DNA of 64,000 bases. Source: Natronorubrum halophilum (GTDB taxonomy: Archaea; Halobacteriota; Halobacteria; Halobacteriales; Natrialbaceae). Below are positions 4,648 to 60,528 of this stretch, in pieces. The DNA lies in contig NZ_QQTY01000007.1 in the NCBI RefSeq assembly GCF_003670115.1, positions 1-64,000 on the forward strand. The letters run 5' to 3'. Position 1 is the first letter of the stretch. Every line of letters begins with the position of its first letter. Below the pieces are notes generated by a model. The model saw only the letters and a list, made by a program, of their open reading frames with translations. It had not been told where the DNA came from and did not search any database. Position numbers and translations under genes: made by a program.

Positions 4648-5111
4648 ATATAAGACTGATCAGCTAACGATAAATCCTGATGCTTTTCTCTGGCTCAATC
4701 CCTACCACTGGTCTTCACCTGTTGAGAGAATCGATTTTCCGAATATGAATACGAGCGATAATCGACTGTTTTCATATCGTGGCAGCTGCCATCGAGATCG
4801 GGACTTCAACCGCGCCGATTGGGACGGTCTCCGGTGTCTTCTTAATAGACAATCGGAGTTCCCGTTACCGAAAAACTCCATAATTCCCGATTCATGGTCA
4901 CGAGATGCCCCCTAAGGGGGCAAGGTAATTGCGCGGCGCGCAGAGCGCGCGCCGCGCTAGCGAAAAATTAGACTGGCCGATACAGGGACTTACGCTGGGT
5001 ATACCGGCTGGTACAGAGTAGTGGGACCTCGATAACCGATGTTGTCGAGTCCGCTTAGGAGGTAGACAGTGGAACCTTCTTCTTTCGCTCACTACAGGTG
5101 CGTACTGAACA
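4648..5111. other. Gene-free stretch with hairpins and repeat copy 2
   Basis: No convincing gene. AT-rich until about 4895, then GCCCCC/GGGGGC (4907-4921), an 11-bp-stem hairpin (4931-4941 with 4947-4957), an AAAAATTA run near 4963 and the second copy of the 42-bp repeat (5021-5062). Confidence 0.6.
4907..5062 (+). repeat. Repeat copy 2 with two upstream hairpins (IS605-end or RNA-like)
   Basis: The core at 5021-5062 differs from copy 1 at four positions, all transitions. The two hairpins upstream are in the same place as in copy 1 but have unrelated stem sequences (GCCCCC/GGGGGC and GCGCGGCGCGC/GCGCGCCGCGC), so the secondary structure is kept while the bases changed. The two copies are direct repeats 1375 bp apart and bracket the small membrane protein and HTH genes. 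Confidence 0.55.
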
Positions 5112-6404
5112 TCAGCTTGAAACGCGAGAGACTAATGAATCGGCAGTCTGTTGTGCTTGCTCTACAATCGATTCCTCTTCAAGAGTTAGTACTTCACGGT
5201 CACGCATGAGGATTCGTCCATTACAGATCGTATGCCTCACATCGCCCCCAACTGCTGCGTAAGCTAGATGACTTACTAAATCGTGCCGAGGCGTCAAGTG
5301 TGGCTTCTCAAGATCAATGACGGCTAAATCAGCTGGTTCTCCCTCTTCAATCACTCCTGAATGAAAGCCAAGTGCTGAAGCACTCCCTTGAGTCATCATT
5401 TGAACTACCATCTCTGCCGGAACGGCGCTCGCGTCATTAGCAGCAATTTTACCGAGCATTGCAGCATCACGACCCTCATCTAATAACGATAGGTCATTGT
5501 TTGCAGCTGCACCATCTGTTCCAAGACCGACCGTCACTCCTGCATCCATCATACGCTGGATCGGAGCCATACCGCTGGCCAACTTCATATTAGAAGCTGG
5601 ACAATGGATTACACTTGTTCCTGCCTCAGCTAAGAGGTTGATCTCCTGCTCATCAACATGTACTCCATGGGCGACGAAATCTTGAGGTTCCAACATCCCG
5701 TGATCTGCGGCATAATCGAGTGGGCGAATACCATGGTTATTGACTACTGGTGTGACTTCGTTCAGAGTCTCATTAGCATGATAGTGGATTGGAATACCTG
5801 CTTCACGGACCCGAGGGACGAACTCCTCAAGGTATTCACTTCCCACAGTGACCAAAGAATGTGGCATAAACGCAGTTGAGATTCGCCCTTCTGCCGCACC
5901 ATCATACTTTTGTGCGAACTCAAGGCTTTTTTCGACATCTGCTAATGCATTATCATCGTCCTTCCCAGTCGTTACAATCCCGTGGCCCAGTAGGGCTCGT
6001 ACTCCAGCTTGATCAACCGCATTAACGATTTCGGGCACATGGAAGTACATGTCCGCAAAACCAGTTGTTCCAGACTTGATCATTTCTAACAAGCCGAGTT
6101 TTGCTCCGGTATGAACATCGTCTGCGGTCATTGTGCTTTCAGCTGGCCAAATATCTTCTTCAAGCCAGCGGTCCAGTGGCTTATCATCTGCATACCCTCG
6201 AAGCAATACCATTGGAACATGAGAATGGCCGTTAACAAAACCAGGAGTCACTAGCGAGTTGGAGGCCTGGAGAATGTTCTCTGCTGTAAGACCAGAGCCA
6301 ATCTTGTCAATCAAACCGCTATCTTGATCAATCAGTACATCTGCTTGAGAGACCGTCATATCGGGACGCAGAACTTGCCCCCCTGCAATTAGAAGTGATG
6401 TCAT
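5112..6404 (-). CDS. mtaD: 5-methylthioadenosine/S-adenosylhomocysteine deaminase family amidohydrolase
   Basis: A 430-aa metal-dependent amidohydrolase of the cytosine-deaminase-like group (MtaD/SsnA/AtzB). The metal ligands and family motifs are present in order: NGHSH near residue 60, HYHANET near 205, AHGVHVD near 245 and GTDGAAANNDL near 295. Length fits the family. The enzyme probably deaminates adenosine-type purine nucleosides such as methylthioadenosine or SAH in the cytosol. The ATG at 6404 is chosen because the family starts there (MTSLLIAGG); the 70 residues upstream are unrelated, cysteine-rich and unlike coding sequence. The gene is clearly lower in GC than the surrounding chromosome and stands alone, both signs of recent acquisition. 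Substrate assignment within the family is uncertain. Confidence 0.85.
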   Translation of the reverse strand: MTSLLIAGGQVLRPDMTVSQADVLIDQDSGLIDKIGSGLTAENILQASNSLVTPGFVNGHSHVPMVLLRGYADDKPLDRWLEEDIWPAESTMTADDVHTGAKLGLLEMIKSGTTGFADMYFHVPEIVNAVDQAGVRALLGHGIVTTGKDDDNALADVEKSLEFAQKYDGAAEGRISTAFMPHSLVTVGSEYLEEFVPRVREAGIPIHYHANETLNEVTPVVNNHGIRPLDYAADHGMLEPQDFVAHGVHVDEQEINLLAEAGTSVIHCPASNMKLASGMAPIQRMMDAGVTVGLGTDGAAANNDLSLLDEGRDAAMLGKIAANDASAVPAEMVVQMMTQGSASALGFHSGVIEEGEPADLAVIDLEKPHLTPRHDLVSHLAYAAVGGDVRHTICNGRILMRDREVLTLEEESIVEQAQQTADSLVSRVSS

Positions 6405-6753
6405 TAGATAGAATGTATATTCGAGGCACATCACAATGTTGCTTTTCGTGTGTTCAAAGAAGCCCCTGTACTTACCGTGATATCCAGGCGAACTCTGACT
6501 GAATAGAACTTCCGGAAGCACTGTTTTGATACAACTTCCTGGAGTTACACATAGAATAGTTTGGTCTTCCGTATATACACACGAGCATGGATTATTCGTG
6601 TGCACATCTTTCAACCGCTGATCTCACTTGAGACACGCTCATGCACTCATAATCCTTCCCAAATGAGATACAATCAACAATTCTAATCAGTACGGGATAA
6701 ATTCCGTGTTCACGAGACGGTTTTGAAGCCGTAGATTGGGTGACGAAATCTCG
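6405..6753. other. Intergenic, no gene seen
   Basis: AT-rich leader of the deaminase gene (promoter expected near 6410-6450 on the minus strand) followed by the return to high GC near 6720. No repeat or RNA signature found. Confidence 0.5.
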
Positions 6754-7050
6754 TCACGACGCGTCGGTCGAAGCGTCGAGTTCGCTCGCGTCGAGTTCTT
6801 CATCAAGATACGCCTCACCCTCGTCGGTGATCGTATAGAGGCCGGTCACGATTTGCTCGAGAAGGCCGTACCGAGCGAGTTGTTTGCACCTGCGGCTGGC
6901 GTGGCTACTTGAGGGGCCACCGAATTCCTCGACTGCTGCAGGGGTGAGATTTCCGCGTTCGCGGAAGATCTCGAGTATTCGGTCGTCGACGGGCTGCATC
7001 CACTCCGCAGGTTGTCGAACCACGTTCTCGGTATCTCTGACTGTGCTCAT
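6754..7050 (-). CDS. PhiH1 repressor-type winged-helix regulator
   Basis: A 98-aa protein. Residues about 20-80 form a winged helix: MQPVDDRILEIF (helix 1), LTPAAVEEF (helix 2), SSSHASRRCKQLARYGLL (recognition helix) and a wing ending LYTITDEGEAYLDEEL. This is the architecture of the halophage PhiH1 repressor family widespread in haloarchaeal proviruses. The C-terminal tail is acidic. The gene points away from the operon at 7261-9195, with about 210 bp of AT-containing DNA between them, so it may repress both itself and that operon. The family call is from the pattern; the operator was not identified. Confidence 0.75.
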   Translation of the reverse strand: MSTVRDTENVVRQPAEWMQPVDDRILEIFRERGNLTPAAVEEFGGPSSSHASRRCKQLARYGLLEQIVTGLYTITDEGEAYLDEELDASELDASTDAS

Positions 7051-7260
7051 ATGCCCTGCGATGTGTATGAAACACTCAGTAGTTTCTATCCTCTGATTAG
7101 AGATATAGCGCCTAAACTCAGAGATAGTGATTAACTTATTTAATGCCGACCTGCTATGGGTTGTATGGAAGCCGGTCTATTGGGGACTCATCGAGAAGTG
7201 CCCAACGTGTTGGAGCACGTCGGACGCGGCTTCCGATCCTCTCTAGGGATTCTAGAAGCC

Positions 7261-7476
7261 ATGCGACAAGATAGCCTCCGAGCCCATAACTGTAGGGTTC
7301 ACGAGCCAGATGTATCGGATGACAACCACGTAGGTAGTGACCACGACGAACCAACTCGCCACGCGATCAATCCGGACGACGAAGCCGTCGAACTCCCGCT
7401 TCTCGGCCGCGACGCGTGCTTCGTCGCCGGCGAAGACGCGTTTCTCCTCGAGATCCGCCGAGGTGCTCGCCGATGA
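7261..7476 (+). CDS. Small protein at the head of an overlapping operon
   Basis: The C-terminal 40 residues (AVELPLLGRDACFVAGEDAF) look like a folded, acidic haloarchaeal domain, and the stop codon overlaps the next start as ATGA at 7473. The start is uncertain: ATG at 7261 gives 71 aa, ATG at 7156 gives 106 aa. A TATA-like run (about 7135-7143, TTATTTAA) could drive either. The N-terminal extension has codon use unlike the rest. The function is not recognised. It is placed opposite a PhiH1-type repressor, suggesting a small accessory element. Confidence 0.45.
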   Translation: MRQDSLRAHNCRVHEPDVSDDNHVGSDHDEPTRHAINPDDEAVELPLLGRDACFVAGEDAFLLEIRRGARR

Positions 7477-7871
7477 CCGACTACGTCGTCCCCACGGGCC
7501 GGGGCTACCTCGGCACGCACGCCGTCAGCCCCGGCCGGACGGTCACGCTTTCGACCGCCGTGCTCGGCGACCGGGACTGGAACGATCGGTCTCGAGTCCA
7601 CGCCATCGCGCACGAGGACGGCGTCGCGCTCGTTCCCGCGGCCGAGTCGACGGAGCCGTTCACCGCGTACGCGCTGTGCAATCGCCACGACGCCGCTCGA
7701 ATCACCGTCGGACGGGTCGCCGTGGCCGAACTCGGGCTCGAGCCCGCCGATTCGGTTCGCGTCTACGATCTCGCGGTGATCGACGACCGGCCCGGCGTGT
7801 TGCTCGTCGACGCGGCCGACGATCCGCGCCTCGAACCCGACCGCGAACGCGACGCGGGGGCCGAGCCGTGA
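7473..7871 (+). CDS. Hypothetical protein, AbrB-like strand-rich fold possible
   Basis: A 132-aa acidic protein starting in an ATGA overlap. By eye it is beta-rich: repeated short strands (GRTVTLSTAVL, GVALVPAAE, ARITVGRVAVAELGLEPADSVRVYDLAVIDD). The segment with 'AELGLEPADSVRVYDL' resembles the loop-hinge of swapped-hairpin AbrB domains, but the match is weak. It overlaps the next gene by 4 bp (GTGA). No catalytic residues are recognisable. It is likely co-translated with its neighbours as part of one element-encoded complex or regulon. Confidence 0.6.
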   Translation: MTDYVVPTGRGYLGTHAVSPGRTVTLSTAVLGDRDWNDRSRVHAIAHEDGVALVPAAESTEPFTAYALCNRHDAARITVGRVAVAELGLEPADSVRVYDLAVIDDRPGVLLVDAADDPRLEPDRERDAGAEP

Positions 7872-50023: not shown

Positions 50024-51748
50024 CTACTCGGCGTTCGCGTTCGCCATCGCGGTGAGCTTCGATCGCACGCCGTCGCTGAGCGTGTAGGTCCGCTTGCCGG
50101 GCCGGTCGAGGATCCCTTCCGTCCGCAACTCCGAGCAGAGCCCCTGGACTGCAACCGCCGAGCGCCCGACCCTGTTGGCGACGGTCTTCGTCTCGAGGGG
50201 TTCGTCTCGAGCCAGTACGACGAGCGCTTGTCGGGCCGTCGTCGCGGTACACTGCGATCGCTCGGCCGCACGCGTGAGTCGGTCGTCGATCCACTCGCCT
50301 TCGAACAGCTCCTCGGGAGCCGCCGATTCCGTCGCGGTGGTAATGTCCGATCGGCTATCGGCACCGTCTGAGGACGCGCTGTCGACCGACGTGTAGCCGA
50401 ACTCGATGTCGTTGCCGCCGGCCTGGACGATCTCCGCCATCGACTTCGATTCCGACTCCGCTGTCGAGCCCGATTCCGCTACCGAGTTCGCTTCTCGTTT
50501 CGTATCGTGTTCGCGAACTCGCTCCCGCAGTCGCTCGTTTTCTTCCCGTAACCGCTCCATCGTATCCGTCCGCGACGCGAGTTTCGCTTCGAGCGTCTCG
50601 ATCCGCTCGCCTCGCGCTTCGAGTTCGTCCTCGAGTTCGTCCCGCTCGGCCTCGAGGTCGAGGAGTTCGTCGTGGAGCCGACGGCGCTCCTCCTCGTCGC
50701 CCGGCAGTTCCGTCTGGACCGTCTCCGGTTGCATCAACGCGTCCGCCATCTGCTTGGCCGCACTCGAGACGTCCCGCGCCGACTCGAGTTCGTTTTCGAG
50801 GGTCTCGATGCGTTTCTCCTTCTTCTCGAGTTCGTTCTCGAGTTCGATGATCCGATCCTCTTCGCGTTGCTTTCGCTCCGAAATATCCTGCAGGTCGCCG
50901 ACGAGTGCGTCGGAGACGGACTTGAGTTCCGGCCGCTTGAAATCGTCGAGCCCGGGCGTTGCGCCGGCGTCGAAGGTCCGCTTGCGGCGAAACTGGACCT
51001 TCCGAACGTCGACTTCGGTCCAGTCGGTCTGGACGAACGCCTGTCCGTCGTTCAACTCCGAGACGAGTTCCGAGTACTCCGTGTCGATGATCCGGCCGAC
51101 GACGTTCGTATCGTTATCCCAGGTCAGCCGGTGCCAGACGAGCCAGTTCGCCTGCGTGATGAAGTCCTTTTTCACGTCCGCCGGGCGCTGGCTGATGCCC
51201 AGAATCCCGAGACCGTGCTTTCGGCCGCGCTTGCTGATCTTGATCAGTAGCTTCCCCGTCTCGCCGACGCCGCCGCCCTCCGGAATGTACTCGTGGACTT
51301 CCTCGACGACCAGCAGGAAGGGCTTTTTGAGCTTCTTCTCCTTGACAAACAGTTGGCGCGCGATCTTCCGAAGGAGTTCGTTCGCCACGTCCTCGTCGAG
51401 GTAGCCCGAGACGTCGAGGATCACCGGGACGTTCTCCTCGAGGGCGAGCGAGGCCATCTGCTCGGCGTGCTCGGGGCCGATCTGGATGTCACACTCCTCG
51501 TCGGCACCGGCGTGGAGCATCTCGTACTCCTCTTTGAGCCCGTAGTACTCGCCGTCGGTGTCGACGATGAGGAGGGGATAGCCGGCCTCGAGCAACTCCT
51601 CGGCGATGACCGATGCGGTGTTCGACTTCCCCGATCCCGACTTGCCGGTGACGAATCCGCGGCCGGTCAGTAGTTCGACGACGGGCAGTTGCAGATCCGA
51701 TCCGTCGTCCGTTTCGCCGACGAGGATTTCACGCTGGTCGCTCACCGA
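50024..51748 (-). CDS. HerA/FtsK-superfamily ATPase with coiled coil and winged helix
   Basis: A 574-aa protein. Walker A GKSGSGKS is at residues 34-41, VDTDGEYYGL follows, and Walker B is LLVVEEVHEYIP near residue 150, then GLGILGISQRP (near 185), as in HerA and DUF87 ATPases. Residues about 290-430 are a heptad coiled coil. The C-terminal 75 residues look like a winged helix. HerA-type proteins pump DNA or partner with nucleases. No NurA gene is adjacent. Instead the gene is divergent from parA across the 9-bp repeat array, which suggests a role at that site. GTG at 51748 is chosen; GTG/ATG further upstream would add residues of low quality. Confidence 0.82.
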   Translation of the reverse strand, partial: SVSDQREILVGETDDGSDLQLPVVELLTGRGFVTGKSGSGKSNTASVIAEELLEAGYPLLIVDTDGEYYGLKEEYEMLHAGADEECDIQIGPEHAEQMASLALEENVPVILDVSGYLDEDVANELLRKIARQLFVKEKKLKKPFLLVVEEVHEYIPEGGGVGETGKLLIKISKRGRKHGLGILGISQRPADVKKDFITQANWLVWHRLTWDNDTNVVGRIIDTEYSELVSELNDGQAFVQTDWTEVDVRKVQFRRKRTFDAGATPGLDDFKRPELKSVSDALVGDLQDISERKQREEDRIIELENELEKKEKRIETLENELESARDVSSAAKQMADALMQPETVQTELPGDEEERRRLHDELLDLEAERDELEDELEARGERIETLEAKLASRTDTMERLREENERLRERVREHDTKREANSVAESGSTAESESKSMAEIVQAGGNDIEFGYTSVDSASSDGADSRSDITTATESAAPEELFEGEWIDDRLTRAAERSQCTATTARQALVVLARDEPLETKTVANRVGRSAVAVQGLCSELRTEGILDRPGKRTYTLSDGVRSKLTAMANANAE

Positions 51749-51863
51749 CCCGCCACCCCGCACGCACGCGATTCGTTCATATATCAGTATACTTCGAATA
51801 CGGCACCTTGAATATTGGCCTCGCTGATGCGGAGCGCTCGCCCGGGTAGATCCAGTGGAGGCG

Positions 51864-52708
51864 GCTCGAACTGTTTAAACAGTGTACACGGTTTAGACAT
51901 CCTAAAACGCCCTCACTGTGCGAACTGTGTTCTGTAGGCCGTCTCCGTGCCGATCGGACGTTCGACGCTCGAGCAGTCGACTAACGCACCTTCCACACAG
52001 TTTACAAGGTGTGAACGGTACGCGATGTGTAGAAGGTGCCCCACTCTCCGGTGTCATCGACCGCGGTGACCCCCAGTCGAACGCCGCCGCCGCGTTTCGT
52101 TCGCCCGTATGCGAGCCCGACACGGTTCTCGATTTGTAAACGGCTTTTACTTTCTACACCGTGTACACATCTCACACTGTCTAGACGGTTCTCAATTTTC
52201 ACTGTTAGCTGTTCTCCCCCGATATTTCGCTAAAATAGCCCTCCGTGACTTCTGGCGGTTGAAATGCGGATTTTCAGCTCACGCTGTCTACACCGTTCGG
52301 GCTTCGACTACGCCAGAACCTTCTACACTGTCTACACTGTGTAGACGGTTTCCGCTACTGTTAAGTCACGTTACTTGGATGATAGACGTGTCGCTCGCCG
52401 CGTCCGATCGAGTCGACTCACGGTCGAACCTCGTACAATGTCCACACCGTGTACACGCTGCACACCGCCGGCACGTCCCAGACCGTTCGGACAGTCGGGT
52501 GTGCGACTCGCAGTCCGATCGCGAGAACGGTTTGCACAGTGTACACTGTTCGAACGTTGTAGATGTTCTGAACTGTCCGAACTTCGCTGGATGGCGATCC
52601 GGTCGAAGGCTACCACCGCCGGCTGTTGCACGCTCGCCCGGGCGACTCCGTCACCGTCCGTGCATTCCAAACGGTGTACAATTCTCACACCGTCTACACT
52701 GTGTAGAT
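51864..52708. repeat. Array of phased 9-bp units, candidate centromere (parS) of the ParA system
   Basis: About 850 bp of non-coding DNA made of 9-bp units with consensus GTSTACACY. Clear blocks start at 51864 (5 units), 51909 (3), 51982 (6), 52125 (8), 52277 (3), 52312 (5), 52422 (9), 52521 (7) and 52665 (5). Blocks at 51864, 51909, 52125, 52422, 52521 and 52665 are offset by exact multiples of 9; the other three are shifted by 1-2 bp. Best units are GTGTACAC at 51882, 52161, 52449 and 52539, and GTCTACAC at 52330 and 52692. The array lies just before parA and its small partner gene. Confidence 0.8.
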
Positions 52709-52793
52709 TGGTTCCCGCTCGAGGGCGGTGCTCGAGGTTCGAACGGGTTCTCCCGCTTCGAGGGCAGACGCGGCGACCGAGGTGTACCCACGA

Positions 52794-53627
52794 ATGACGA
52801 CACAAACCCCACGCGCCGTCAGCGTCGCCCTCCAGAAGGGCGGCGTCGGCAAAACGACGCTCGCGATCAATCTCGCCGAACGACTCGCCAACCGATCGAA
52901 CGACGTCTTGCTCGTCGATTTAGACCAGCAGGGCAACGCCACCGAAGGCGTCGGGCTGAGCGACGCCTACAGCAGCGACCGCCACATCGGTGACGTCCTC
53001 GAGGACGGTTCCGGGACCGCACTCGAGGACGTGATCCGTTCGACGGACTCCTTCGACGTACTCCCGGCCCACGAGGACCTAGACAGCGTCGAAAACAGCA
53101 TCCGGAGCGCGACCTTCGGCGAACTGTGGATCAGAAACGAGATCGTCGATCCCGTACTCGGCGAGGAGTACGACTACGTCGTCGTCGACTCGCCGCCGAA
53201 CCTCGGGCCGCTCGCGGACGCCTCGCTCATTTCGACGCAGAACGTCATCGTCCCGCTGCGGATGAGCGAACCCAGCGTGAGCGGGTTCGAACGCATGTAC
53301 ACCCAACAGATCGGCCCGATTCGCAAGGAGATCGACCTCGATATCATGGCGATCGTCCCCAACTCGCTCGCCGGAGACAACGAGGAGAAGCGAATTATCG
53401 GCGATCTCGAGGAGTCCCAGTTCGGCGAGTTCCTCCCGCAGTTCGCTCGCTCGGTTCACTTCGACGATCCGGACTCGCCGGGTCCGGGGCTGCGCGAACG
53501 TATCGCCTTCCGCCGGGCGTGGCGCGAGGGCGTCCCGCTCGCGGCGTACGATCCGGAGAGCGATATGCTCGATCGATTGGACGAGCTGGCCGCGATCGTC
53601 GAACGCGGAGGTGTCGCCGATGCCTGA
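52794..53627 (+). CDS. ParA-family partition ATPase
   Basis: A 277-aa ParA/Soj-type ATPase. The deviant Walker A QKGGVGKTTL (about residues 14-23) has the signature lysine. LLVDLDQQGNAT near residue 45 is Walker A', and YVVVDSPPNLGPL near residue 125 is Walker B. There is no N-terminal HTH, so it is the small (type Ib-like) form that moves DNA together with a centromere-binding partner. ATG at 52794 follows GAGGTG. The repeat array lies immediately upstream and a ribbon-helix-helix-like gene overlaps its 3' end. Chromosomal or plasmid-derived origin cannot be told from this window. Confidence 0.92.
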   Translation: MTTQTPRAVSVALQKGGVGKTTLAINLAERLANRSNDVLLVDLDQQGNATEGVGLSDAYSSDRHIGDVLEDGSGTALEDVIRSTDSFDVLPAHEDLDSVENSIRSATFGELWIRNEIVDPVLGEEYDYVVVDSPPNLGPLADASLISTQNVIVPLRMSEPSVSGFERMYTQQIGPIRKEIDLDIMAIVPNSLAGDNEEKRIIGDLEESQFGEFLPQFARSVHFDDPDSPGPGLRERIAFRRAWREGVPLAAYDPESDMLDRLDELAAIVERGGVADA

Positions 53628-54078
53628 GGACAACCGGTTTGCGGGATTGAGCGAGGCCGTCGACGACGATGGTGGATCCGCGGACAAATCGGAGAGCGAG
53701 CCGACGGCCGACGACGACTCGAGCGTCCGATCGGACCCGGCGGAACACGAGTTCGACGAGTCCAGTGTCGCTCCTGATTCCGAGAGCGGCGATACCGCGG
53801 CGGACGGGTCGAACGGGGCGGACTCCGACTCCGAACCGAGCGAACCCGACGATCCGACCGCGTTTCCGTTCGATGCCGCGGAGAAGAAGACGGTGTACGT
53901 CCGCTCCGAGACGCTCGACGAACTCGAGGACGCGCGCGCGTTAGTCGACGCCCAGTTGCGAACGGAACACGACGTCCGCGATCTGACCGGCCGGGAGTTC
54001 TACGACGCGGCGTTTCGACTCGCCGCGTCGGATACGGGCGGGCTGATCGACGAAGTTCTCGAGGCTCGCGACGACTGA
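53620..54078 (+). CDS. Candidate centromere-binding partner of ParA (RHH-like)
   Basis: A 152-aa protein. The first about 85 residues are acidic, S/D/E-rich and disordered. The C-terminal part has a short strand (KKTVYVRS, about residues 87-94), a helix (ETLDELEDARALVDAQL) and a second helix (GREFYDAAFRLAA), the order of a ribbon-helix-helix domain. Small RHH proteins are the usual DNA-binding partners of small ParA ATPases. Its ATG overlaps the parA stop by 8 bp and follows GGAGGTG. Most likely it binds the 9-bp units. The family assignment is by eye only. Confidence 0.65.
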   Translation: MPEDNRFAGLSEAVDDDGGSADKSESEPTADDDSSVRSDPAEHEFDESSVAPDSESGDTAADGSNGADSDSEPSEPDDPTAFPFDAAEKKTVYVRSETLDELEDARALVDAQLRTEHDVRDLTGREFYDAAFRLAASDTGGLIDEVLEARDD

Positions 54079-54143: not shown

Positions 54144-56150
54144 CTACTTGTCGGTGGAGTCCGCGGTGTCTGCAGCTTCACCGCCGGTAGCTGTTTCCGT
54201 GCTATCAGCGAATTCGGCGCTGTCTCCCGTTTCGACCGTCTGTTCCCGAATCGTCATTCCCTTTCGGCCGAGGTGCTGGAGCTGTTTGCGGGCGAAGTCC
54301 TCCTCGCGAGTCCCGTACGTGGCGAGTACGTACACCAGCGCACCGCCCGCCGGACGCATCGTCCGACCGGCTCGCTGGGTTCCCTGTCGCCGAGAGCCGC
54401 CGAGACCGGAGGCGATGATCGCGAGATCGGCCGTCGGCAGGTCGATTCCCTCGTCGCCGACGCGGGAGATGACCAACAGGTCGCGTTCGTTCCGCCGGAA
54501 CTCCTCGAGCAGCCGCCGGCGCTCGTGGTGGGGCGTCTCGCCGCTGAGGAAGGGCACGTCGAGGGCGGCTGCGAGCTCCCGGCCCTGTTCCAGATAGTCG
54601 ACGAAGACGAGCGCTTTCGAGTCGGGGTGGGCCGAGAGCAGGTACCGTACGTCGTCGATCTTGCCCCGGTTTTTCGCCGCGATTCGGTACCGCCCCCTGC
54701 CGTCGGCCGAGCCGTAGGCGTTTCGCTGCTCCTCGTCACCCCACGGCACGTAGCGGATCTCGAGTTCCGGTTCGGCGACGAAGCCGGCCTCGAATAGCGC
54801 CTCCCAGTCGGTGCCGATCGGCGGGCCGACGAGGGTAAAGATCTCGGTCTGGCGGTCGTCCTCCCGGATCGGGCTGGCCGAGAGCCCGAGTCGGTGTTTG
54901 GACTGGAGGTGCGTACTCCGCCGGTACACGTCCGAGGGAACGTGCTGGCACTCGTCGAAGATCACGAGCCCCCACTGCCGGTCGTCGAACAGCGACCGGT
55001 GGCGATCCATTCCGGCGATCTGGTAGGTGGCGATCGTCACCGGACGGACCTCCTTTCGGCCGCCGTGGTACTGTCCGATCTGTTCCGGCTCGAGCGAGGT
55101 GTACTCCACGATCGTCTCGGCCCACTGTCGGGCCAGATCCCGGCTCGGGACGAGCACGAGGGTTTCCCCGCCGACGTGGGCCATCGCACCCAGCGCGGCG
55201 ACGGTTTTTCCGCTTCCCGGCGGGCCGACGAACACGCCCTCCCCGGCCTCCGCGAAACGATCGACCCACGTCTGCTGGTAGTCCCGCAGCCGAACCTCGA
55301 GGTCGATCGGTAGCTCCTCGCCGGACTCGAGGTCGCGGTGGTCCTGCACCGGGTAGCCCGCCTCGTAGAGAATTCGCTTGATCGCGGCCTCTGACCCCTC
55401 CCGGACCCAGTCTTCGGTCTCGGAGATGGGGGCGTGAACGTGTTCCTCGTCGAGTTTCTGGCGGGCGACATTGCCCATGATCTCCGGGCTCTGGCCCTCG
55501 AGTACGGTGTAGCCGTCCTCGTGGGTCGCCAGCCGGAACTGGTGGGCGCGATCCCACTGGCTTTCGACCCAGTCCTCGAGCGGTTCGGAGCGCTGTCCCA
55601 GCGCCTGGCGCATCGTCCGGGCGAGGTCCTCGAAGGAGTCGTGGGGTGCCTGCCAGATATCCTCTGGCCTGACGACGTAGCGATAGCCCTGCTCGCCGTT
55701 GCCGTCCGCGTGGTAGGCGAACTGAGAGAGCTGTGCGCGGGTAAACTGGTCCGGCCGGTCGACGATAATCTCGCGACGCTTCGGAAAGACGATCACGCGC
55801 TCCCGGTCGGTCAGATCCTCGAGTTCGCTGGGGTACCAGACGACGGGGTCGGTGTCGACGGAGAGTCGCCGGACAGCGCCCCGATCTGCGAGGTTCTCGA
55901 GCGCCTCGGTGGCCGTTTCGTGGGGGAGGTCGAGCGCTCGAGCGACGGCCGCGGCGGTGAGGACCGGTCGGCCCGCCTCTTGCGAGGCATCGTGGAAGTC
56001 CGCGATCGTCAACTCCTCGCGCTGTTCGTCCGCAGCGTCGTCGTTCGGCTGCTCCCGTAGCTCGTCACCAGTTGCGTTCGAGGAGGGTTCGTCGGTCACT
56101 GCCCGGGCGTAGCGGCGGTGCGGGTAAACCGATTTCGTTCGACTCGACAT
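54144..56150 (-). CDS. rad25: XPB/Rad25-like superfamily 2 helicase
   Basis: A 668-aa helicase. N-terminal winged-helix and damage-recognition-like regions (about 25-280) precede the helicase core: Walker A VGPPGSGKTVAAL (near residue 300), DECQ box VIFDECQHVP (near 385), GLSASP (near 410), and in the second RecA lobe VISRVGDEGIDLP (near 580) and QRAGRTMRP (near 610). This fits archaeal XPB helicases that unwind or remodel DNA in repair or transcription. ATG at 56150 is chosen; GTG at 56099 is possible. The C-terminal 50 residues are acidic and disordered. It is a convergent neighbour of the ParA partner gene. Confidence 0.88.
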   Translation of the reverse strand: MSSRTKSVYPHRRYARAVTDEPSSNATGDELREQPNDDAADEQREELTIADFHDASQEAGRPVLTAAAVARALDLPHETATEALENLADRGAVRRLSVDTDPVVWYPSELEDLTDRERVIVFPKRREIIVDRPDQFTRAQLSQFAYHADGNGEQGYRYVVRPEDIWQAPHDSFEDLARTMRQALGQRSEPLEDWVESQWDRAHQFRLATHEDGYTVLEGQSPEIMGNVARQKLDEEHVHAPISETEDWVREGSEAAIKRILYEAGYPVQDHRDLESGEELPIDLEVRLRDYQQTWVDRFAEAGEGVFVGPPGSGKTVAALGAMAHVGGETLVLVPSRDLARQWAETIVEYTSLEPEQIGQYHGGRKEVRPVTIATYQIAGMDRHRSLFDDRQWGLVIFDECQHVPSDVYRRSTHLQSKHRLGLSASPIREDDRQTEIFTLVGPPIGTDWEALFEAGFVAEPELEIRYVPWGDEEQRNAYGSADGRGRYRIAAKNRGKIDDVRYLLSAHPDSKALVFVDYLEQGRELAAALDVPFLSGETPHHERRRLLEEFRRNERDLLVISRVGDEGIDLPTADLAIIASGLGGSRRQGTQRAGRTMRPAGGALVYVLATYGTREEDFARKQLQHLGRKGMTIREQTVETGDSAEFADSTETATGGEAADTADSTDK

Positions 56151-56222
56151 GTAGCAGTGGTGTGTGCCAGGCGGGAAGAACACACGAAACAGCGGTGGGC
56201 GCGAGCCTTCCTCGAACCGCTC

Positions 56223-59655: not shown

Positions 59656-60528
59656 ATGGACGGCCGCGCCGTCGCCCCGGCAGCCGGTACGGTTCTCAAC
59701 GCGCTCGCGACCGGAACCGGCTCTGCCTTCGCGATCGACCTCGAGACGACAGCCACCGTCGAACTCACCAGTGACGGACGCGTCGACGCCGAGATTGTCG
59801 GCCAGCCCGACGCCGATACGACGCTCGTCGAGCGCTGTGCTACACTGACGATCGCCGAACACGCTTCACCCGCTGGGCTGAACGAGTCGACCGTCGGTGC
59901 TCGAGTCCGAACGGAGAGCGAGGTTCCGATGGCTTCGGGGCTGAAGAGTTCGAGCGCCGCCGCGAACGCGACCGTGCTCGCAACGCTCGACGCGCTCGAG
60001 ATCGCCGACGCAGTTGATCGGATCGACGCCTGCCGACTGGGTGTGCGAGCCGCTCGCGACGCGGGCGTGACGGTTACGGGTGCGTTCGACGACGCCAGCG
60101 CGAGCATGCTCGGCGGTGTGACGGTGACGGATAACGCGACCGATGAACTGCTTGCCCGCGAGGAAATCGATTGGCACGCGCTCGTCTACACCCCGCCCGA
60201 GCAGTCGTTCAGCGCCGACGCCGACGTCTCCGCTTGCGAGCGGATCGCCCCCATGGCCGACCTCGTCGCTGAGCTGGCACTGGACGGCCGCTACGGCGAG
60301 GCCATGACCGTCAACGGCTTCGCGTTCTGCGGTGCCCTCGAGTTCTCGACCGGTCCGATGATCGACGCGTTGCCCGACGCCGCCGGCGTCTCCCTGTCGG
60401 GGACGGGACCGAGTTACGTCGCCGTCGGCGATCAATCGACGCTCGAGACGGTTCGAGACCGGTGGGACGAACGCGACGGAACGACACGATTACTGCGGAC
60501 GCGAACGGACGGAACAGAACTAGCATGA
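59656..60528 (+). CDS. aroK: Archaeal shikimate kinase (GHMP type)
   Basis: A 290-aa GHMP-family kinase. It starts MDGRAVAPAAGTVLNALATG, with the ATP-binding motif GLKSSSAAANATVLA near residue 96 and the C-terminal GHMP motif SGTGPSYVAVGD near residue 255. This is the archaeal, non-homologous shikimate kinase that phosphorylates shikimate in aromatic amino-acid synthesis. Length is normal. A TAAATATA box about 20-25 bp before the ATG (59628-59635) implies a near-leaderless message. Its stop overlaps the chorismate mutase start by 4 bp (ATGA), so both pathway enzymes are made together. Confidence 0.95.
   Translation: MDGRAVAPAAGTVLNALATGTGSAFAIDLETTATVELTSDGRVDAEIVGQPDADTTLVERCATLTIAEHASPAGLNESTVGARVRTESEVPMASGLKSSSAAANATVLATLDALEIADAVDRIDACRLGVRAARDAGVTVTGAFDDASASMLGGVTVTDNATDELLAREEIDWHALVYTPPEQSFSADADVSACERIAPMADLVAELALDGRYGEAMTVNGFAFCGALEFSTGPMIDALPDAAGVSLSGTGPSYVAVGDQSTLETVRDRWDERDGTTRLLRTRTDGTELA

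Follow-up and report, generated by a model that had tools for sequence, protein, structure and literature searches.

A probable active partition locus with an array of 9-bp units on haloarchaeal secondary replicons

Introduction

How several haloarchaeal replicons are divided is an open question. Haloarchaea are polyploid, and according to a 2018 paper (PMC6063281) new chromosomes in Haloferax can rely on random partition, the presumed sufficiency of which we count against a reading that invokes active partition in these cells. A locus on the 159-kb contig C7 of Natronorubrum halophilum raises the question anew. It consists of an array of 9-bp units, followed by parA and then by an overlapping gene for a partner protein, and so presents a defined centromere candidate together with a motor and an adaptor. 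Does this locus actively partition the replicon that carries it? We address this question from the window (the whole 64,000-nucleotide stretch of DNA that was analysed) and from related loci in other genomes.

We estimate a probability of about 80% that the locus actively partitions a haloarchaeal secondary replicon by means of a type Ib-like ParA, partner and centromere that use a replicon-specific 9-bp code. The parA and partner genes form a conserved, overlapping pair with tandem 9-bp units upstream, and this layout recurs on many replicons with units that are specific to the clade. An original prediction made from the letters of the window had proposed a partition system here; what it observed is for the most part correct, and the case is stronger than it claimed. 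Neither the partner family nor the 9-bp arrays were found described in the open-access literature searched (one library only), in which SegAB and the ParA of haloviruses are already present. Haloarchaeal soj paralogues have also been described (PMC7439475).

Results and discussion

A small ParA ATPase gene overlaps the gene for its partner

The product of parA is assigned to ParA/AAA_31 by Pfam (E 2e-35), matches the Soj/ParA segregation protein 1wcv in the PDB (E 9e-22) and is recognised among PHROGs as a ‘ParA-like partition protein’ (5.6e-43). Its P-loop lies near the N terminus and is preceded by no DNA-binding domain, as in type Ib systems. Also as in type Ib, a small gene is located immediately 3′ of parA, starting 8 bp ahead of the parA stop, and an overlap of 4-8 bp is found in most surveyed loci. 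The original prediction of a small ParA ATPase overlapping a partner gene is therefore borne out, as are the coordinates given for the two open reading frames (Table 1).

The non-coding DNA between the divergent HerA-like gene and parA (about 51764-52793, ~930 bp to ~1 kb) holds no likely gene. Short repeats upstream of the operon are a third type Ib feature, present here by position, with a putative centromere role for the array. The locus agrees with type Ib in gene layout and array position, with a partner fold that is itself putative, and most likely works in the manner of a type Ib partition locus. The HerA-like and XPB-like neighbours are also found on pHTUR04 of Haloterrigena turkmenica. 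On a plasmid of N. aibiense (L119), genes for the Rod-determining factor RdfA and an archaea-specific SMC-related protein (4817-7513) are located a few kb from the partition locus.

Table 1. Coordinates of features in the window and on other host contigs (C7, C3)
Feature	Location	Strand	Details
HerA-like DUF87 gene	50024..51763	-	HerA-like ATPase with long coiled coil; divergent from parA
Whole array of 9-bp units (putative centromere)	51868..52713	.	consensus tandem ACACNGTGT / GTGTACAC
Cluster 1	51868..51903	.	GAACTGTTT AAACAGTGT ACACGGTTT AGACATCCT; tandem scores
Cluster 2	51913..51930	.	2 weak units
Cluster 3	51986..52021	.	GCACCTTCC ACACAGTTT ACAAGGTGT GAACGGTAC
Cluster 4	52156..52191	.	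ACACCGTGT ACACATCTC ACACTGTCT AGACGGTTC
Cluster 5	52281..52298	.	2 units: ACGCTGTCT ACACCGTTC
Cluster 6	52316..52351	.	GAACCTTCT ACACTGTCT ACACTGTGT AGACGGTTT; strongest of all
Promoter-like GTTAAG(T) element inside array	52360..52366	+	TTCCGCTACT precedes; promoter role putative
Cluster 7	52435..52470	.	ACAATGTCC ACACCGTGT ACACGCTGC ACACCGCCG
Cluster 8	52525..52551	.	GAACGGTTT GCACAGTGT ACACTGTTC
Cluster 9	52669..52713	.	AAACGGTGT ACAATTCTC ACACCGTCT ACACTGTGT AGATTGGTT
parA	52794..53627	+	277-aa deviant Walker (QKGGVGKT) ATPase without N-terminal DNA-binding domain
Partner gene (putative centromere-binding protein)	53620..54078	+	8-bp overlap with parA
Conserved C-terminal domain of partner	53851-54075		~75 aa
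XPB-like helicase gene	54144..56183	-	flanks the partition locus
aroK (archaeal shikimate kinase)	59656-60528		single-copy in host; 6 kb from parA, contig C7
orc1	C7:130327-131436		within L292 (130327-133400)
Second ParA/partner locus of host	C3:513853-515168 (L206)		708-kb contig; array of GATAGGTGM units, 9-bp pitch

The partner is new to family databases and its fold is putative

After a short N-terminal NRFAGL motif (NRFAGLSEAV), the partner protein continues with an arm of acidic, low-complexity sequence and then a conserved C-terminal domain. Type Ib partners carry a conserved arginine finger in their flexible N-terminal arm; in the present family an arginine is part of NRFAGL but is absent from the subfamily that carries NPFDDL instead. 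Pfam, NCBIfam and PHROGs contain no such partner family and returned no match for the host protein, and a PDB search yielded only beta-lactamases at chance level (E 0.3-1.2). No ParB N-terminal or helix-turn-helix domain was detected with Pfam or NCBIfam, which sets the locus apart from type Ia and chromosomal ParABS systems.

The acidic arm had been predicted correctly, but the ribbon-helix-helix (RHH)-like C terminus proposed along with it matches no RHH family, that of Pfam included. When the partner profile was aligned by hhalign with an RHH_1 profile built from the host’s own CopG-like proteins, the score (10.5) fell within the range of shuffled controls (maximum 13.1). A sister subfamily, typified by ORF47 of halovirus phiCh1, scored slightly above its controls (18.0 versus 13.7). 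An AF2 model of the isolated C-terminal domain, made from the single sequence without an alignment and of low confidence (pLDDT 63), places an extended segment ahead of two helices, which is the order of elements expected of an RHH protein. Foldseek returned no match for this low-confidence model.

Degenerate 9-bp units form clusters upstream of parA

Autocorrelation of the 1000 bp upstream of parA gives its highest values at lags of 9, 18 and 27 (z 5.9, 5.7 and 4.7 against Markov shuffles), and this is the only region of C7 with strong 9-bp periodicity (contrast 5.6; best elsewhere 1.9). The predicted period-9 array is thus real. The repeating unit had been given as GTSTACACY, which occurs exactly only 4+2 times in the array region and 1+1 times in the rest of the window. 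A better description is the palindrome ACACNGTGT in tandem, such that the junction of two units reads GTGTACAC; pooled motif fitting likewise recovers AnACnGTnT, equivalent to ACACNGTGT every 9 bp on either strand. Sites that match at least six of eight positions number 24 in the array, compared with a mean of 6.9 in shuffled sequences (largest of 500: 20) and with 3.5 in stretches of the same length from the rest of the window. The degeneracy of the units explains why Tandem Repeats Finder does not detect the array.

The array does span the ~850 bp originally described as composed of units. However, it is not one unbroken array, as the units form about nine clusters of two to five with other DNA in between. 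A promoter-like block (TTCCGCTACTGTTAAGT in the window) also lies between clusters, and every one of the 15 orthologues with upstream sequence has it 360 to 551 nucleotides ahead of parA. A further cluster of about four ACACNGTGT-type units, apparently non-coding, is located far from parA (C7:120747-120782, L291) and is possibly a secondary site.

The position of this block, GTTAAGT surrounded by units, is what would be expected if the array were an operator only, through which the partner represses the parA-partner operon, and the divergent HerA-like gene, with ParA acting elsewhere and no centromere involved. Bacterial type Ib partners also repress their own operons (PMC5016525). However, about nine clusters over ~850 bp go far beyond the needs of an operator, and arrays of similar length precede paralogues that have different flanking genes. 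Operator and centromere roles are moreover compatible with each other, and we consider repression as the sole function of the array improbable.

Array, parA and partner gene are conserved together

Orthologues of the host ParA with 86-94% identity were found in each of the nine congeners that were searched and, beyond the genus, in six others of the same family. Each of the 15 orthologous loci with enough upstream sequence (host window included) carries the array, the absence of which from close relatives would have spoken against the original prediction. In these 15 loci, GTNTANAC sites occur at 5-12 per kb upstream, compared with 0.2-0.5 expected, and period 9 is evident as well. Three ParA homologues of 49-52% identity that have no such partner (L106-L108) show neither the motif nor period 9 upstream. 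In this distribution the array goes with the partner type, and array, parA and partner gene make up a single conserved module.

The locus resides on a secondary replicon with a core gene

Contigs that carry host-type ParA orthologues range from 37 to 271 kb, and in complete genomes the locus is on separate replicons of 130-240 kb. It is present on complete records filed as plasmids from Natronorubrum daqingense (202,531 bp), N. aibiense (207,310 bp), N. bangense (213,905 bp), Natrononativus amylolyticus (240,954 bp) and H. turkmenica (pHTUR04, 171,943 bp). In 12 of 13 genomes of the clade, the exception being a 70-contig draft, the single aroK gene is on the parA contig, and four of these 12 contigs are records filed as plasmids (202-241 kb). 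Family members that have few contigs and no such locus carry aroK on the megabase main contig. Judged by this distribution, aroK is a core gene that has moved to the secondary replicon. The replicon qualifies as a chromid (a separate replicon with plasmid-type maintenance and a single-copy core gene) because the single-copy aroK resides with parA on it, and the host locus therefore looks like the partition locus of a chromid.

Tandem short repeats in non-coding DNA beside a plasmid maintenance gene could also be replication iterons, which would make the array the origin of the replicon, and the Haloferax locus does adjoin orc1. Against this, no replication gene borders the array within the window, and the host contig has its own orc1 accompanied by TTTCACCGGAAAC..GGTGTG origin-box repeats (131.4-133.4 kb), ~79 kb from the array. 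Given this orc1 and these origin boxes elsewhere on C7, iterons were rejected as the main reading and are very unlikely. The distance between the origin boxes and the partition array is almost exactly half of the 159-kb contig.

Comparison with known systems and a proposed mechanism

The closest parallels to a partition reading are the type Ib systems of bacterial plasmids, in which the operon is preceded by its centromere and the partner acts on ParA through an N-terminal arm (PMC5016525). The delta/omega system of pSM19035 (ParA with RHH protein omega and 7-bp WATCACW repeats) and ParF/ParG of TP228 share with the host a ParA that lacks an N-terminal helix-turn-helix, a small partner gene directly downstream whose product joins a flexible N-terminal arm to a small C-terminal domain, and an operon preceded by short repeats, both direct and inverted. 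In contrast to these, the host spacing is 9 bp rather than 7 bp and its arrays are much longer and broken; its partner is archaeal, has no detectable sequence kinship and only a putative RHH fold, and its gene overlaps parA by 4-8 bp. The ParA/ParB system of pCXC100 from Leifsonia, a type Ib system with direct repeats only, resembles the host in its tandem direct repeats upstream of parA-parB and has an RHH partner (PMC5016525), although it is from a bacterial plasmid and is likened to the archaeal locus by layout only. Direct repeats also precede parAB on chromosome II and the megaplasmid of Deinococcus radiodurans, which are likewise secondary replicons, but there the partner is a classical ParB and the repeats bind DnaA (PMC7671480).

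Among archaea, SegAB of Sulfolobales pairs a ParA orthologue with the archaea-specific RHH protein SegB, encoded downstream, and has binding sites upstream of the cassette, as at the host locus. However, SegB recognises a 13-bp palindrome, TCTAGASTCTAGA (TCTAGA-S-TCTAGA), at dozens of positions across the main chromosome (PMC12284271), whereas the host has one local array of ACACNGTGT units every 9 bp, the only such array on C7, on a secondary replicon. No SegB chain was among the PDB matches of the partner. Haloviruses phiCh1 and ChaoS9 encode a ParA and an ORF47-type protein in genes with the same 8-bp overlap, and the C-terminal domain of the latter is homologous to that of the host partner (hhalign 37.1 versus a shuffled maximum of 15.7, E 1.3e-6). 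These viral partners belong to a different subfamily and have no 9-bp array directly upstream, whereas plasmid relatives of the subfamily do, with GAAACGAAC-type units. Arrays behind which ParA genes are followed by this second subfamily were observed at L312, L314, L315 and L317 (GAAACGAAC-type) and at L309 (ATCAGACAC-type).

By analogy with these systems, partner dimers would use the C-terminal domain, which probably consists of a ribbon and two helices, for cooperative binding to the array, with about one dimer on each 9-bp unit, and would thereby load it as a centromere. Bacterial RHH partners load on tandem repeats, and activation of the pSM19035 ParA requires four or more contiguous 7-bp repeats (PMC9499535). 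The flexible N-terminal arm of the haloarchaeal partner would contact nucleoid-bound ParA-ATP and trigger ATP hydrolysis, and copies of the replicon would follow the receding ParA gradient and separate. Binding of the partner to the array, stimulation of ParA and stabilisation of the replicon are thus predictions of the analogy. Through the units flanking the promoter-like element, the partner may also repress its own operon.

Units differ between clades and between loci of one cell

Several clades share the 9-bp pitch and have clearly different unit sequences, each accompanied by its own version of a ribbon-like segment in the partner. Units of type ACACNGTGT occur with KTVYVR, ACCTATTG with RPLYAR or KPFYAR, TGTAGAT-like units with HGFYVR, and ACAATTT/ACAAATT with KSIYVR or KSVYVR; the Haloferax unit is ATTGTAGAN. 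For AT-rich clades, enriched 7-mers are given instead of EM motif models, which were degenerate. The match between unit and segment follows phylogeny and is therefore not independent evidence for binding.

The two loci of the host have mutually exclusive units, as evident by counts of 13 ACACNGTGT and no ACCTATT on C7 and of 0 and 10, respectively, on C3. Such differences in unit sequence would keep several ParA systems of one cell from acting on each other’s arrays. An array could consequently serve as a ready marker to tell apart separately maintained replicons, and might predict incompatibility groups from sequence.

A partner family found throughout the haloarchaea

A profile of the partner C-terminal domain (A1) was used to search genomes of Halobacteria, and relatives were found in 204 of 391 genomes, which represent 55 of 84 genera. 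When 296 genomes were drawn from across the phylum, every match listed fell within the order and no member of the family was found outside it; scans of viral contigs yielded no relatives. We fetched 100 loci of the family and scored the DNA upstream of parA at 95 further loci, many of which are close relatives and do not represent independent events. A first criterion for period 9 was dropped when codon periodicity was seen to give 8-27% false positives. Because codon structure also yields period 9, we then used a contrast, in which the mean z at other multiples of 3 is subtracted from that at lags 9, 18, 27 and 36, with a cut-off of 2.

By this measure, 71 of the 95 loci carry a period-9 array, compared with 3 of 530 control segments taken from the window, other haloarchaeal loci and parA coding regions; with a cut-off of 1.5 the counts are 80 and 10. 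In roughly one in four of the loci surveyed the array is weak or absent, and several of these are on chromosome-sized contigs. Arrays beside other haloarchaeal parA-partner pairs, which the original prediction had proposed to look for, are therefore common, but with units that differ by clade rather than GTSTACACY. The array is neither special to this locus nor built on a single unit: 9 bp is a general spacing and it is the unit sequence that changes. Loci of the family are also found on annotated plasmids, and where one genome has two strong matches these are on different contigs in 18 of 19 cases among the matches listed.

It is likely that these loci represent a class-wide haloarchaeal family of active partition systems in which the 9-bp pitch is fixed and the unit is specific to the replicon. 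Each secondary chromosome or plasmid in a polyploid cell would be segregated by its own ParA, partner and array, and centromere-like sites would be widespread in the class. ParA-like ATPases have many cargoes, and the partner belongs to no recognised DNA-binding family, but the frequent co-occurrence of the gene pair with extrachromosomal replicons and arrays, and the related pairs on temperate haloviruses that are known to persist as plasmids, make it least probable of all that ParA and partner position some other cargo (a protein or membrane structure, as in MinD/McdA-type systems) with repeats unrelated to transport. For the partition reading, roughly half of the haloarchaeal genomes searched contain candidates, among them genomes of the tractable genus Haloferax, and one candidate is on a secondary chromosome that bears a core gene; the locus could provide a stabilising cassette for haloarchaeal vectors.

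In the HGFYVR subfamily (L204-L256), partners are nearly identical (MPNEDDRFGDVAEQLKQTEEG...) and are encoded mostly on contigs of ~100-140 kb from many haloarchaeal genera and families; these contigs appear to represent a widely shared plasmid backbone. At another locus (L311), a chromosomal ParA homologue is followed downstream by a putative reading frame full of AETAEAAEAAETAE repeats.
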